From: Hydrogenophaga sp. | GTDB lineage: Bacteria > Pseudomonadota > Gammaproteobacteria > Burkholderiales > Burkholderiaceae_C | Direction: 5' to 3' | Length of the DNA: 64,000 nt | Assembly: GCA_011391495.1 (NCBI GenBank) | Contig: JAABQK010000004.1 | Location: 1 to 64,000, forward strand | Shown here: positions 1 to 44,153 of the stretch, one piece after another | Numbering within the stretch: the stretch's first letter is position 1 | Layout of the letters: each line of letters opens with the position of its first letter | Notes under the pieces: generated by a model | Told to the model about the DNA's origin: nothing | Databases searched by the model: none | Seen by the model: only the letters and a program-made list of their open reading frames with translations | Position numbers and translations under genes: made by a program

Positions 1-2634
1 TGATGGGTCCGCTGGTGGCGCCCTCGGTGGCGGCCAGCGCGTCCACCCAGTCCAGCGGCAGGCCACGCAGCCGCCCCTTGGTCTGCAGTGTGCCGGCCTG
101 CCAGGCCAGGCTGTCCCAGGTCAGTGTGGCCGGGCGGCTGGTCAGCGCTGGCGCAGAACGGCCAGTGGTGCCGGTGGGAGCGGCCGCCGCGGAGGCGCGC
201 GGGAGCATGCGCAGGCTGGGCTGCACCTCGACCTGCCCCGGTCCCGCTGTCACGTCGGGGCCGGCCGCCGTGGCGCGCCAGCCCAGCGACAGCGGGCCGG
301 TGTTGTGCAGCGACCAGTCCACCACGCGGTCGGGCCGGGACGCATCGCTGGCCAGCAGGCGCAGGGTGTTCAGCGCCAGCTGGCTGGCCGGTGCGTTGGG
401 TGCACTGGCGCTGCCGGGCAAGGGCCAGGCGTTGCGCAGTTGCCCGTTGGCGTCAAGCACGGCGCGCCAAGGCCCCTGGGCCACTTCGCCCTGCAGCTGC
501 AGCGCCAGAACGGCCAGGCTGCCGCCAGTCTGCAGGTGCAGGTTCCGCACCGACCAGGCGGCGTTCGATGGCGGGTTGGACGGGGTGCTGGCCGCTGTGC
601 CGGGGGGCGCGGTCGTGGTCGGGTCGTGGTCGCCGGGCTGCCTGGTCCGGTGCGTTCCGCTGCGCCGCGAAGCGGTGCGACCAACCGGTCCAGGCGCGGG
701 ATGTCCAGCGTGGCCTTCAGTTGCAGCGGCACCCGCCGCGCCGGCGTGCTGGATGCCGGTGGTGCCGGGTAGCCGAGTTCGGCCAGGCCACCCTGCCACT
801 GGGCGGACAGCCGGGCCTGACCGGCCAGCAACAGGTCGCGCAGCGCGGGCTGTTGCTGCATCCACGTGGCGATCGGTGGCCCCACCAGCGGCTGGCGCTG
901 CAGGCCGCGCAACCAGCCGAGCAGCAGCCCGGCTTCTTCCACTTGCAGCGCCAGCTCGCCCCGGCCATCGGCGTGAGCCAGCGTGCCGTCGAAGCTGCCC
1001 CGGGCGCCCGGCAGCATCAACGTGACGCTGCCCGCGAAGGTCGACGCGGTGGCGTCCACCCGGCCCTGACCCGCGAGCCGGGCCTGCACGGCGTCGAGCA
1101 CGGCGCTGCTGAAGGTCAGCACGCCGCCCGGGCTGCCCGCCGGGGCGGGGACCCACTGGCCTTTCAGCGCCAGCTCGCGCAGCCGCAAGCCCTGCTGGGC
1201 ACGGGTGGCGGGCTGGCTGGCCGACGGCAGGATGCGCGCGTCCAGATCGATCGCTGCGGTGGAGGTGCCGCTGGTGGGTGCGGTGCGGGCGCTCAGCCTG
1301 GCATCCAGCGCAGCCGGGGCCAGCGTGCTCCAGAGCAGTGCCGGGTTCACCCCGGAGGCCTTGAGCTGTCCTTGCCAGCGCGCGGGCTCGCTGGCGCTGG
1401 CGGGCTGGAACTCGCCCGTGGCGTCGATCTGGCCACGGCCGGCTTTGGCCGACAGGCGCGGCAGCAGCCAGCGCGCGCCACGTTGTTCCAGATCGGCCTG
1501 CAGACTCTGCAACGGCAGGCGCTGCTGGTCCCAGGGGCCGCTGGCCGCGTTGCTCAGGTTCACCTCGGCGATCCAGGCACCGCCCGCGGGCAGCGCGCGC
1601 AGTGTGCCGGTGAGCAGGGTGCCTGGCGCCTGCGGCCAGAGCGTCGCCAGGTCCAGACGGTGCGCGGTGGCGTCCACGCTCAGCAGCGGGTGCGGTGCCC
1701 AGGGCATCACGCGGGCGGTGGCGGCCAGCGTCGGGGTGCCGGTGGACGACGCAGCACCCGGCCGCACATCGGCCGTCACGTCCAGCGTGGCACTGGCACC
1801 GGCAAGCGTGCCGGTGCCGCTGGCCGTCGCCTGCAGCGTCAGGCTCTGCCCGTCGGGGACCGTGGCCAGCACCTCGCCCTCGGCGTTCATCAGCAGCGGC
1901 ATGGGGGCCTGGGCGCCCATCGTGGCCTGCAGCCGGTAGCGACCCTGTGCGAACCGCAGCGAATCCAGCGTGAGCTGGTGCGCGTCGGCCACGGCGGGCC
2001 GGTTTCCGAGCGTGGTCAGCAGTTCTGCGCTGGCCGGCCCGTAACGGTAATGGCCTTTGATGTCACCCAGTGCGAGCCGGTTCGGACCTTCCAGCGAGAA
2101 GCTGCCCACCGACCAGGCCACCGACACCGGCAAGGGCAGGGTGAACGACTGCAGCACCTCGGACGGCTTGGGCTCGCGACCGTCGCGCACCTCCAGCCGT
2201 TCGATGCTCACCTCCTGCAGCTGTACGCCACGTCCGCGCAGCAGGTCGGTCCACAGGCTCGCGTTCCAGCGCAGCCGCACACCATGCGCCTGAACGTTCA
2301 GGCCGTTGAACGACCACTGCAGGCGTGCGATGCGCCCGCCCTCGCGCAGGCTGCCTTCGGCGCCCTCGCTGTCCAGCAGGCCGAAGGTGTTGGCGCGGTC
2401 CTTCAGCCAGGCCTGCGCCCAGCCCAGTGTCTGGCCCATCGAGCCTGGCGTGCCGGCCCACAGCCACAGGGCGAGCACCGCCGCCAGCAGCATCGCCAGC
2501 AGAGCACCGGGCAGCCAGAGGCCGAGCCAGCCGATGCTTCGCAAGGTGCGCGCGGCGGCGCGCCCCAGCCGCTGCAGCGCACTGGCACGGGGTGTCGGGG
2601 TGGGGGCGGCAGACGCCAGGGCGGGCGGGTCCAT
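1..2634 (-). pseudogene. tamB: tamB, translocation and assembly module subunit, frameshifted and cut by window edge
   Basis: TamB is the inner-membrane-anchored, periplasm-spanning partner of TamA in outer-membrane protein insertion and lipid transport. The N-terminus shows one membrane segment (about residues 36-62), then long beta-rich AsmA/TamB-type sequence. The first frame runs from the ATG at 2634 and stops at 370, but from about position 632 onward its translation turns into low-complexity, proline/arginine-rich nonsense. Sensible TamB-like protein continues in another minus-strand frame from about 600 to position 2. The break coincides with an 11-bp tandem duplication at 611-632; removing one copy joins the two frames exactly. 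The start lies 3 bp after the tamA stop, so the two are co-transcribed. The C-terminal DUF490 domain lies beyond the window. Whether the gene is dead, phase-variable or a sequencing artefact cannot be told from here. Confidence 0.85.
611..632. repeat. Perfect 11-bp tandem duplication inside tamB
   Basis: Positions 611-621 and 622-632 both read GGTCGTGGTCG. Eleven is not a multiple of three, so the extra copy shifts the tamB frame. Taking one copy out gives a continuous minus-strand frame across the junction. A run of six G follows on the left (602-607) and is a second candidate slippage site, but the duplication alone accounts for the shift. Confidence 0.9.
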
Positions 2635-2637
2635 GGC

Positions 2638-4662
2638 TCAGAAGGTGAAGCCGACGTTGAAGTGCAGGCGCAGCGCCTTGGGCTCCAGGCCGTAGGCCAG
2701 GTCCAGCTGCAGCGGACCCACCGGGCTGTTGTAGCGCACGCCTGCGCCCACGCCCCAGCTCGCCCGCAGGTCGCCCGGCCGGTCCGCCACGGCGCCGCCG
2801 TCGAGGAAAACCACGCTTTCCCAGGGGCTGCGCACGCCGTCGCGCCAGATCGGGCGCTGCCATTCCACGCTGGCGACCGCGAGGTAGCGCCCGGCCAGCA
2901 CGCTGCCGTCTGTCTGCAGCACGCCGATGTCCCGCAGGCCGTAGCCACGCACGGTGGTGTCGCCCCCGGTCAGGAACAACTGGGTCTGCGGGATCGGTGC
3001 GTCTTCCCGGGCCCAGACCGCACCCCCCTGGAGCCTCAGCGCGAGCCGGCCTGCCGAGCGCGTGTCGGTCTCGGTGGGTCGGGCCACGCCCAGTGGCACG
3101 GCTGGCGTGTCTGCGCTGCCCATGCCAGCGGTGGACGGGCGCACCCCGAGCGGCCAGTACGACAGCCAGCGCAGCTGGGTACGCGCAAATGGGCGCCGCA
3201 CGCTGCCCAGCGTGGTGCCGCCGCCCAGCTCCACGCCAAGGCCATGGCCTGACTCGGGAAAGGGCATGCTGTCGAAGCGGCGGCGGGTCCAGGCGTAGTT
3301 GGCGCTGAGCGAAGCATCCGCGCCGCCGGGCTCCAGCAGCTTCAGCACGGAGTTGACCACCTCGGCCCGGTCGTACTGCAGGAAGACGCTGCGGTCCAGG
3401 TCGGTGCTGTCCTGCGACCGACCGGCGCGCAGCCGGGTGCTGGTGGTGGTCACGAAGTTGTCGATCTGGCGCGCCAGCTGGGCGGAGCCGATCCAGCGCC
3501 AGCCTTTCTCGTCCACCGGAGCGCTCCAGTCCGTCACCAGCACCTGGTCGGTGCGTTCCAGCTGAAGCTTGCTGGCTGCCCGCCAGCCGATGCCCGGCAC
3601 GCGGTGGTGCGTGTGTTCCAGCGACAGGCGCGCACCGCTGTCGGTGCTGCCACCCACGCCGAGCACGAGCTTTTGCTGTTTGCTCTCGCGCAGCTGCACC
3701 ACCACCGGCGCGCTGGACTGGCCGCCCGTCGGGTCGACAAAAACGTACACCGAGTCGTAGTAGCCGGTCTCGGCGATGCGCTGCTGGGCATCCTGCAACT
3801 GGGCCAGGTTGTAGTCGCTGCCCGGGGTGACGCCCGAGAGTCGCAACAGGCGTTCGACCGTGACCGGGTCGTAGCGCTCGGCACCCTCCACCCGCACCTC
3901 GCCCATGTGCAGCGGCACACCCGAATCCAGCTCGACGCTCAGGCGCACGCTGTGGTCGACCGGGTCGATGTCGGCCAGGCTGTTGTGGATGCGGCCAGCC
4001 GGATAGCGCTGCGCGGTGAGCGTGCGCAGCGCCGCGGTCTTGGCACGGTCCCAGTCGGCCTGCGTGAAGCTCTGGCCCGGTGCCAGCGTCCAGCCGCTGG
4101 TGATCTCTTCACGTTGCGCGGCGGCTTGCGGGTTGTCGGCGATGTCACCGCGAAAGTACAGGTCGGCCGATGCCACGCGGGTGATGGGGCCGGGCTCGAC
4201 CCGGATTCGCACCGTGCCGAGCGGTGTGGTGCCGGTGGCCACCGGTTCGCCGATTTCGATTTTCGGCGAGAAGTGGCCCAGGGTGCCGAGCAGGTCCCCC
4301 AGGTTGTCGGGTGCCCTGGCCAGCAGCCGCGCCAGTTCGCTGGCGTCGAGGTCGCGCAGCGTGCGAAAGCGCATCAGCTCCATGTGGCGCAGCAGGAACT
4401 CGCGCAGGTCTTCGCTGGCTTCGAGCTCGACGTCGAAGCGAGGCGGAGCCGGCGCCCGCGTGCGCGCACTGCGGCTGGCCGACGAGGGGGCGAGCGCGTC
4501 CACGGCGGCTTCGGTGGCAGCGGATTCGGTGCGGGCGGCAGGGACCGAGGGTGCGGGCGCGGGTTCGGGCGTCTGGGCCAGTGTCCAGACGGGCAGGAGA
4601 CAGACACCCAGCCCCAGCAGCCACCGGACCCAGACCGCACGGCGCAGGGAGGGAAGGTTCAT
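2638..4662 (-). CDS. tamA: TamA, outer-membrane BamA-family assembly protein
   Basis: TamA is the outer-membrane half of the translocation and assembly module that helps fold autotransporters and other barrel proteins. The 674-residue product has a signal peptide (about residues 1-29, cleaved near TLA-Q), an acidic/alanine-rich linker, POTRA-like repeats over roughly residues 75-330, and a C-terminal Omp85 beta-barrel ending in phenylalanine, as expected for an outer-membrane barrel. Length is slightly above the E. coli protein because of the linker. It starts 7 bp after the VWA gene stop and ends 3 bp before tamB, so it sits in a tight minus-strand operon. Unlike tamB it is intact. Confidence 0.92.
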   Translation of the reverse strand: MNLPSLRRAVWVRWLLGLGVCLLPVWTLAQTPEPAPAPSVPAARTESAATEAAVDALAPSSASRSARTRAPAPPRFDVELEASEDLREFLLRHMELMRFRTLRDLDASELARLLARAPDNLGDLLGTLGHFSPKIEIGEPVATGTTPLGTVRIRVEPGPITRVASADLYFRGDIADNPQAAAQREEITSGWTLAPGQSFTQADWDRAKTAALRTLTAQRYPAGRIHNSLADIDPVDHSVRLSVELDSGVPLHMGEVRVEGAERYDPVTVERLLRLSGVTPGSDYNLAQLQDAQQRIAETGYYDSVYVFVDPTGGQSSAPVVVQLRESKQQKLVLGVGGSTDSGARLSLEHTHHRVPGIGWRAASKLQLERTDQVLVTDWSAPVDEKGWRWIGSAQLARQIDNFVTTTSTRLRAGRSQDSTDLDRSVFLQYDRAEVVNSVLKLLEPGGADASLSANYAWTRRRFDSMPFPESGHGLGVELGGGTTLGSVRRPFARTQLRWLSYWPLGVRPSTAGMGSADTPAVPLGVARPTETDTRSAGRLALRLQGGAVWAREDAPIPQTQLFLTGGDTTVRGYGLRDIGVLQTDGSVLAGRYLAVASVEWQRPIWRDGVRSPWESVVFLDGGAVADRPGDLRASWGVGAGVRYNSPVGPLQLDLAYGLEPKALRLHFNVGFTF

Positions 4663-21474: not shown

Positions 21475-22215
21475 ATGAGAAGCCGTTCGCTGCGCTTCTG
21501 GATCGTCACGGCAGCCACCATTTTCACGATGGCGGTGACGGCGTCGCTCGGCGTCTGGCAGCTCGGCCGTGCGGCGCACAAGCAGGCATTGCAGGAGCAG
21601 ATCACTCAGAGCGGGCAGCTTCCTGCCTGGACCGGGCGCGACCTGCTGCAGGCGCCCGATCTGGAGTCGGCTCTGCATCGCCCGGTCACCTTGTCCGGAC
21701 ACTGGGTTCAGGGCGCCAGTGTGTTCCTCGACAACCGCCAGATGAATGGCCGTGTGGGCTTTTTCCTCCTCACACCGCTGCGCATCGAAGGCAGCGAACG
21801 GGCCGTGCTGGTTCAGCGCGGCTGGGTCCCGCGCGATTTCACCGACCGCAGCCGCGTACCGGCGATCGACACACCTGAGCACGAGGTGCACATAGAAGGC
21901 CGCTTGGCCCCGTCACCGGGCAAGCTTTACCAGCTGGGTCCGGCGGGCACCGGACCGATCCGGCAAAATGTGGACATTCCGGGGCTGTCCCAGGAATGGG
22001 GCATCCCCCTGCTGGTGGTCTCCGTTGTCCAGACCGGTGAAGCAAGCGACGGTTTGCAGCGGGACTGGCCACGTGTCACGGCCGATGTGTACAAGCACCA
22101 CGGGTATGCCTTCCAGTGGTTTGGCCTGTGTGCCCTGGCAGGTGTTCTGTATGTCTGGTTCCAGTTTATTTCCCCCCGCCGAAAGCACCCAATCCATGGC
22201 TCAGAAGCCCGATGA
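21475..22215 (+). CDS. SURF1-family oxidase assembly protein
   Basis: A 246-residue SURF1 homologue, which helps insert haem a into subunit I. It has an N-terminal membrane helix (about 8-28) ending in LGVWQLGRAAHK, the family VFLDNRQMNGRVGFFLLTPL and VLVQRGWVPRD motifs in the periplasmic domain, and a C-terminal helix within HHGYAFQWFGLCALAGVLYV. Both the two-helix topology and length fit. The 3' end overlaps the following gene by 20 bp. Confidence 0.9.
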   Translation: MRSRSLRFWIVTAATIFTMAVTASLGVWQLGRAAHKQALQEQITQSGQLPAWTGRDLLQAPDLESALHRPVTLSGHWVQGASVFLDNRQMNGRVGFFLLTPLRIEGSERAVLVQRGWVPRDFTDRSRVPAIDTPEHEVHIEGRLAPSPGKLYQLGPAGTGPIRQNVDIPGLSQEWGIPLLVVSVVQTGEASDGLQRDWPRVTADVYKHHGYAFQWFGLCALAGVLYVWFQFISPRRKHPIHGSEAR

Positions 22216-43305: not shown

Positions 43306-44153
43306 GCGCCCACACACCCGAACAGTCCCAGCTCGGCAAGGCCTCGGCCTACATCGACCAGTACGATGCATCGCTGCTGTTTCCGCTGCCGCGCGAAACC
43401 AAGCGGCGCGAGATCGGCATCGCCGGCCACATTCCGTTTCTCGGTGCCGATCTCTGGACCGCTTTCGAGCTGAGCTGGCTCAACCCGAAAGGCAAACCGC
43501 TGGTGGCGCTGGCGCACATCACCATTCCATGCGAGAGCACCCACATCGTCGAGAGCAAGTCGTTCAAGCTCTACCTCAACAGCTTCAACAACACGCGCTT
43601 CGCGAGCGCCGACGAGGTGCGCGAGCGCATCAAGGCCGACATCAGCGGCGCCATCTGGCACGGCGACGCGGTCATGGCCAGCGCGGGCGTGAAGCTGCTG
43701 CTGCCCGAGGCTTTTGACCGTGAGGTGGTGCATGAACTGGAGGGCCTGTCCATCGACCGGCTCGACGTGGAATGCACGGCTTACCAGCCCGCACCCGAGC
43801 TGCTGAGTGCGGTTTTCAACGAACAGCCGGTCACCGAAGTCCTCAGCAGCCAGCTGCTCAAGAGCAACTGCCTCGTGACCGGCCAGCCCGACTGGGGCAG
43901 CGTGCAGATCGCCTACAGCGGCCCGCAGATCGACCAGGCGGGCCTGCTGCAGTACATCGTGAGTTTTCGCAACCACAACGAATTCCACGAGCAGTGTGTC
44001 GAGCGCATCTACATGGACATCATGGCGCGCTGCAAGCCCACCAAGCTGGCGGTCTATGCGCGCTACACGCGCCGCGGCGGGCTGGACATCAACCCCTGGC
44101 GCAGCAGCCACCCGCAGCAGCCACCGGCCAACGTGCGCACCGCGCGGCAGTGA
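43302..44153 (+). CDS. queF: NADPH-dependent 7-cyano-7-deazaguanine reductase QueF
   Basis: QueF reduces preQ0 to preQ1 in queuosine biosynthesis. The 283-residue product is the long type. The catalytic cysteine is C190 ([17 protein letters not shown]), and the family [17 protein letters not shown] motif is at about 84-100. [15 protein letters not shown] lies towards the C-terminus. No other queuosine gene is adjacent. Coupled to the hydrolase gene by a 4-base overlap. Confidence 0.95.

Follow-up and report, generated by a model that had tools for sequence, protein, structure and literature searches.

A frame change in a variable linker of tamB, beside an 11-bp tandem repeat, in a Hydrogenophaga draft assembly: very probably a one-off event rather than a reversible switch

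The tamB gene of a Hydrogenophaga draft genome is interrupted at the very beginning of the stretch of DNA analysed here (64,000 bases, hereafter the window), with two exact, adjacent copies of an 11-bp sequence close to the interruption. The locus thus raises the question of whether the repeat broke the gene and of whether the broken form is a reversible on/off switch, a fresh loss-of-function mutation or a product of assembly, the three readings offered by a first-pass annotation of this DNA. The evidence described below argues strongly for a one-off frame-changing event, be it a loss-of-function allele or a local consensus error, and not for a reversible switch.

The window comprises bases 1-64000 of contig C44 (146,462 bases), window base 1 being contig base 1, in a draft assembly of 68 contigs and 3.23 Mb that is 86.31% complete. 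On the minus strand, tamA (2638-4662), which encodes Omp85 and POTRA domains, lies directly upstream of tamB. The 5' part of tamB (691-2634, minus strand) matches residues 66-676 of the TamB protein of H. taeniospiralis (1427 aa) at 61%, and the next part (2-556, minus strand), which is in a different frame and is cut by the contig end, matches residues 684-858 of the same protein at 53%. Both parts therefore show ordered homology along the protein, and the tamA partner adjoins them, as expected of a TamB gene. As assembled, the first tamB frame begins at 2634 and reaches its stop codon at 372-370, giving an open frame of 754 aa (370-2634, minus strand) in which about 650 TamB residues are followed by nonsense. 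The C-terminal TamB domain (PF04357) found no match in the strain's own draft, and the 3' part of the gene (the last ~570 codons) was not found on any other contig of it. Since PF04357 spans residues 1081-1426 in the H. taeniospiralis protein and window coverage stops at residue 858, the domain would fall past the contig end, and its lack is best ascribed to an assembly gap and not to absence from the organism. As a separate observation, contigs of the drafts G012, G013, G184, G193 and G196 (loci L007, L014 and L139-L142) also appear to end within tamB.

The annotated break in the minus-strand frame, with resumption in another frame, was borne out by homology, the 5' half and the next half matching TamB in different frames. 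Each half is free of stop codons in its own frame apart from this single change, so that a real loss, if it is one, would be recent. The two conserved stretches are separated by a non-conserved linker that contains the frame change and whose homology bounds are about 557-690 (minus strand), the query for the 5' part having been trimmed at 691 once an earlier alignment had shown where the match ended. Between the same anchors the linker measures 134 nt here and 21 nt in H. taeniospiralis (locus L039), whose TamB, complete with PF04357, is matched in order by both window parts within one 1427-aa frame, whereas the present gene is split over two frames and its 3' end is missing from the draft; linker length varies widely in other relatives. 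The proposal that the repeat itself breaks tamB holds to the extent that the frame is interrupted at or near the tract, but homology places the change only within ~557-690 and the codon model places it slightly upstream of the repeat. That deletion of one copy would restore an open frame is weak evidence, since both tamB frames are free of stops across 373-2062.

The exact 11-bp tandem is present as annotated, with GGTCGTGGTCG at 611-621 and again at 622-632. The unit has no further occurrence in the window, two copies of it were obtained in 0 of 100 shuffles, and the only match of the tract's 22-mer in the strain's own draft, with up to 3 mismatches allowed, is itself. The stretch 611-632 was also scored as a period-6 array (3.8 units, 88% matches, 11% indels), and its 22 bases may equally be read as a run of GGTCGT with one unit short. 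A gain of 11 bp and the loss of one base from a hexamer run lead to identical letters and to a frame shift of the same sense, so that two readings fit the tract equally, the exact 11-bp duplication being one of them. The preferred explanation is that a single frame-changing length change would have arisen in the variable, GC-rich linker between the two conserved stretches. The repeated GGTCG(T) tract at 611-632 is the likeliest site of this change, and reasonably probable as such: slippage there would have duplicated 11 bp or removed one base from the hexamer run. In two other genomes, perfect hexamer arrays of 23-24 nt lie within tamB, at L026 (6870-6892; identical in L006 and L123) and L063 (7854-7877), and threonine runs occur at the tamB linker in L057, L075 and L093.

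The background rate of such repeats was estimated by a scan for perfect adjacent repeats with units of 8-40 nt. Non-triplet perfect repeats of at least 10 nt numbered three in 144 kb of the contig, at 611 (11 nt), 44100 (13 nt) and 143728 (10 nt), and none in relatives' loci (280 kb), whose 15 non-triplet repeats all have 8-nt units. This scarcity favours the repeat as the breaking site; its presence would be a notable coincidence if it were innocent. The 13-bp tandem (44100-44125) lies in queF (Pfam QueF), at the 3' end of the gene. It was considered as a sign that the genome is gathering duplications and rejected, as all four relatives inspected (from 12 loci fetched) agree with it in length at this site; the queF tandem is accordingly not a recent duplication, and exactness alone is no proof of a fresh event. 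The 10-bp tandem, of CGGTGTGTGG, lies beyond the window at contig C44 143728-143747. Over 144 kb of the contig, six-frame gene modelling that allowed for frame switches returned 133 complete models in addition to the truncated tamB. It called three switches, two of which (22168 and 136901) were judged by eye to be ordinary overlaps of adjacent genes, leaving only tamB. These overlaps are longer than usual; the first (window 22168-22212) presumably joins a SURF1-like gene to the next gene, and the second (contig C44 136866-136939) is taken to be imuA/imuB-like.

The comparison was made with relatives more distant than the sister strains that the first-pass annotation had proposed as a check. 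Both TamB halves were matched in 58 of 98 relative loci (the best 80 of 132 matches of one scan and 18 from another), and in all 58 of these the halves lie in a single open frame, with none broken between them; the 58 loci represent 51 distinct sequences, seven pairs being one sequence fetched twice. In the remaining 40 loci only the 5' part was matched, because of divergence or contig ends, and these are uninformative on the frame. Of 66 other congeners, 53 yielded a match to the p2 region of TamB, as did 43 of the 44 that reach at least 90% completeness with no more than 5% contamination. By TamB, the nearest named relatives belong to Hydrogenophaga, the best being H. taeniospiralis at 61% among the best 80 of 132 loci. 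A first named scan for a genome of the same species confirmed 0 of 27 stretches, an aligned second scan came no closer than that 61% among the same loci, and among 67 congeneric genomes, this one counted, the best p2 match stood at 58%. The relatives compared are distant, so a tract or switch peculiar to the species would be missed.

The position of the change within the linker bears on whether the repeat caused it. With ten neighbouring genes as its training set, a codon model placed the change point at 648, with 634-654 within 3 nats, and a retrained model (40,682 codons) placed it at 647. The best point inside the repeat lies 3.84 nats below the optimum, a deficit reached in controls with a known duplication at 9 of 1140 random sites (spread over 19 genes) and at none of 1679 sites in linkers (21 loci), the trials within a gene not being independent. 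The description of the frame as sound up to the repeat is doubtful in this light, as the codon scores over 636-690 add up to -2.97 in the first frame and +2.86 in the third, and to -7.0 in the frame that resumes. Within the limited resolution of the model, the preferred interval 634-654 falls in an imperfect hairpin (640-695; arms 640-651 and 684-695, 12 nt, 92% complementary), outside the repeat. These figures suggest that a change elsewhere in the linker, for instance an enlargement by the hairpin segment 640-695, might have broken the gene, the repeat then being incidental and read in the second frame. The poor fit of codons 636-690 to the first frame agrees with this, as does a linker 113 nt longer than that of H. 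taeniospiralis, an excess to which the second copy contributes 11 nt; the short H. taeniospiralis linker is without the hairpin. We nevertheless regard such a change as rather unlikely, since a long non-triplet perfect repeat would then stand in the same 134 nt by chance, and since the resolution of the codon model is limited: with permissive switching, a three-frame model gave the third frame ~0.6 over 648-672 and preferred a wrong frame at 744-760, where the homology is clear. The hairpin, too, is not exceptional, 7 of 200 shuffles folding as stably as 600-705 (z -2.14). As a repeated element it was rejected, its next-best match in the draft being at chance level (E 0.0855 over 22 bases), and a comparison of window 1-3000 with Rfam (E up to 1) found nothing. 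A recoding event, in which ribosomal or polymerase slippage at a site such as the six-base G run at 603-608 would yield full-length TamB, could draw on the position of that run two bases from the repeat and on a second frame that is open from the run to the contig end, but it appears the most improbable of the explanations considered: the codon model rates a switch of frame at 603-608 as 13.0 nats below its optimum, and the 58 of 58 open loci leave no split frame for relatives to conserve.

Whether the tract is real in the cell divides the remaining explanations. A genuine loss-of-function allele of tamB has, in our judgement, about an even chance. A local consensus or assembly error, by which a GC-rich, hairpin-forming repetitive stretch ~0.6 kb from the contig end was misread and the real tamB is intact, is a serious contender that falls somewhat short of that. 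It is favoured by the contig end at window base 1 and the missing remainder of tamB, by the adjacency of hairpin and repeats, and by retention of the p2 region in nearly all congeners of good quality. Against it, the distance of 611 bases from the end exceeds the usual short read, and the two other switch calls look like gene overlaps, which implies that the assembly is not generally poor; general assembly noise is unsupported within 144 kb of the 146-kb contig. Should the error prove to be the truth, the case would caution against calling a switch from an exact tandem repeat that lies close to the end of a draft contig.

For the switch, in which gain or loss of one 11-bp copy would toggle TamB, precedents can be named in other bacteria. 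Pneumococcal capsule phase variation is attributed to tandem duplications that are likewise short and lie in open frames (Waite et al. 2001, 2003, as cited in PMC4022640), and the phasome table of PMC5953494 lists a CCGCC(3) repeat in the Neisseria tamB gene NMB2135, again a short repeat in tamB with a unit that is not a multiple of 3. The pneumococcal duplications are reversible, however, whereas the present draft yielded no second form of the tamB tract, and PMC4022640 gives an expected reversion of at most ~1e-5 where the insertion does not exceed 9 bp. The Neisseria repeat differs from the Hydrogenophaga tract in unit, copy number and organism, and its entry in PMC5953494 carries the evidence label 'None'. 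Furthermore, the tract consists of two copies only; among 59 other congeners, 24 have matches with 3 mismatches and nothing closer, and a reversed control was at least as frequent. A tract kept or varying in length among relatives, as at a contingency locus, was thus not seen in these 59 congeners, and the 58 two-half loci are all open. Of the three readings first offered, fresh loss and assembly error survive, while the switch is very improbable. Correspondingly, there is hardly any likelihood that a tamB switch toggles TamAB-dependent outer-membrane assembly or lipid supply in free-living Hydrogenophaga, with YhdP bearing the load in the off state. A search of open-licence papers found no tamB switch with direct evidence, and in the unlikely event that this were one, it would have, as far as is known, no directly supported predecessor in that gene.

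The consequences of a genuine loss may be sketched from the gene as read. Its product would consist of ~650 TamB residues followed by nonsense and would be without the C-terminal half that bears the TamB domain (PF04357). In the E. coli TamAB structure, according to PMC12800296, the C-terminal part of TamB binds TamA, and PMC8593681 describes the defects of E. coli tamB single mutants as only mild. The present genome retains YhdP as an open frame of 1405 aa (E 1.6e-231). By analogy, loss of TamB would be tolerable here with YhdP remaining and, if real, would add to the instances of an AsmA-like lipid-bridge protein being lost with a paralogue retained.
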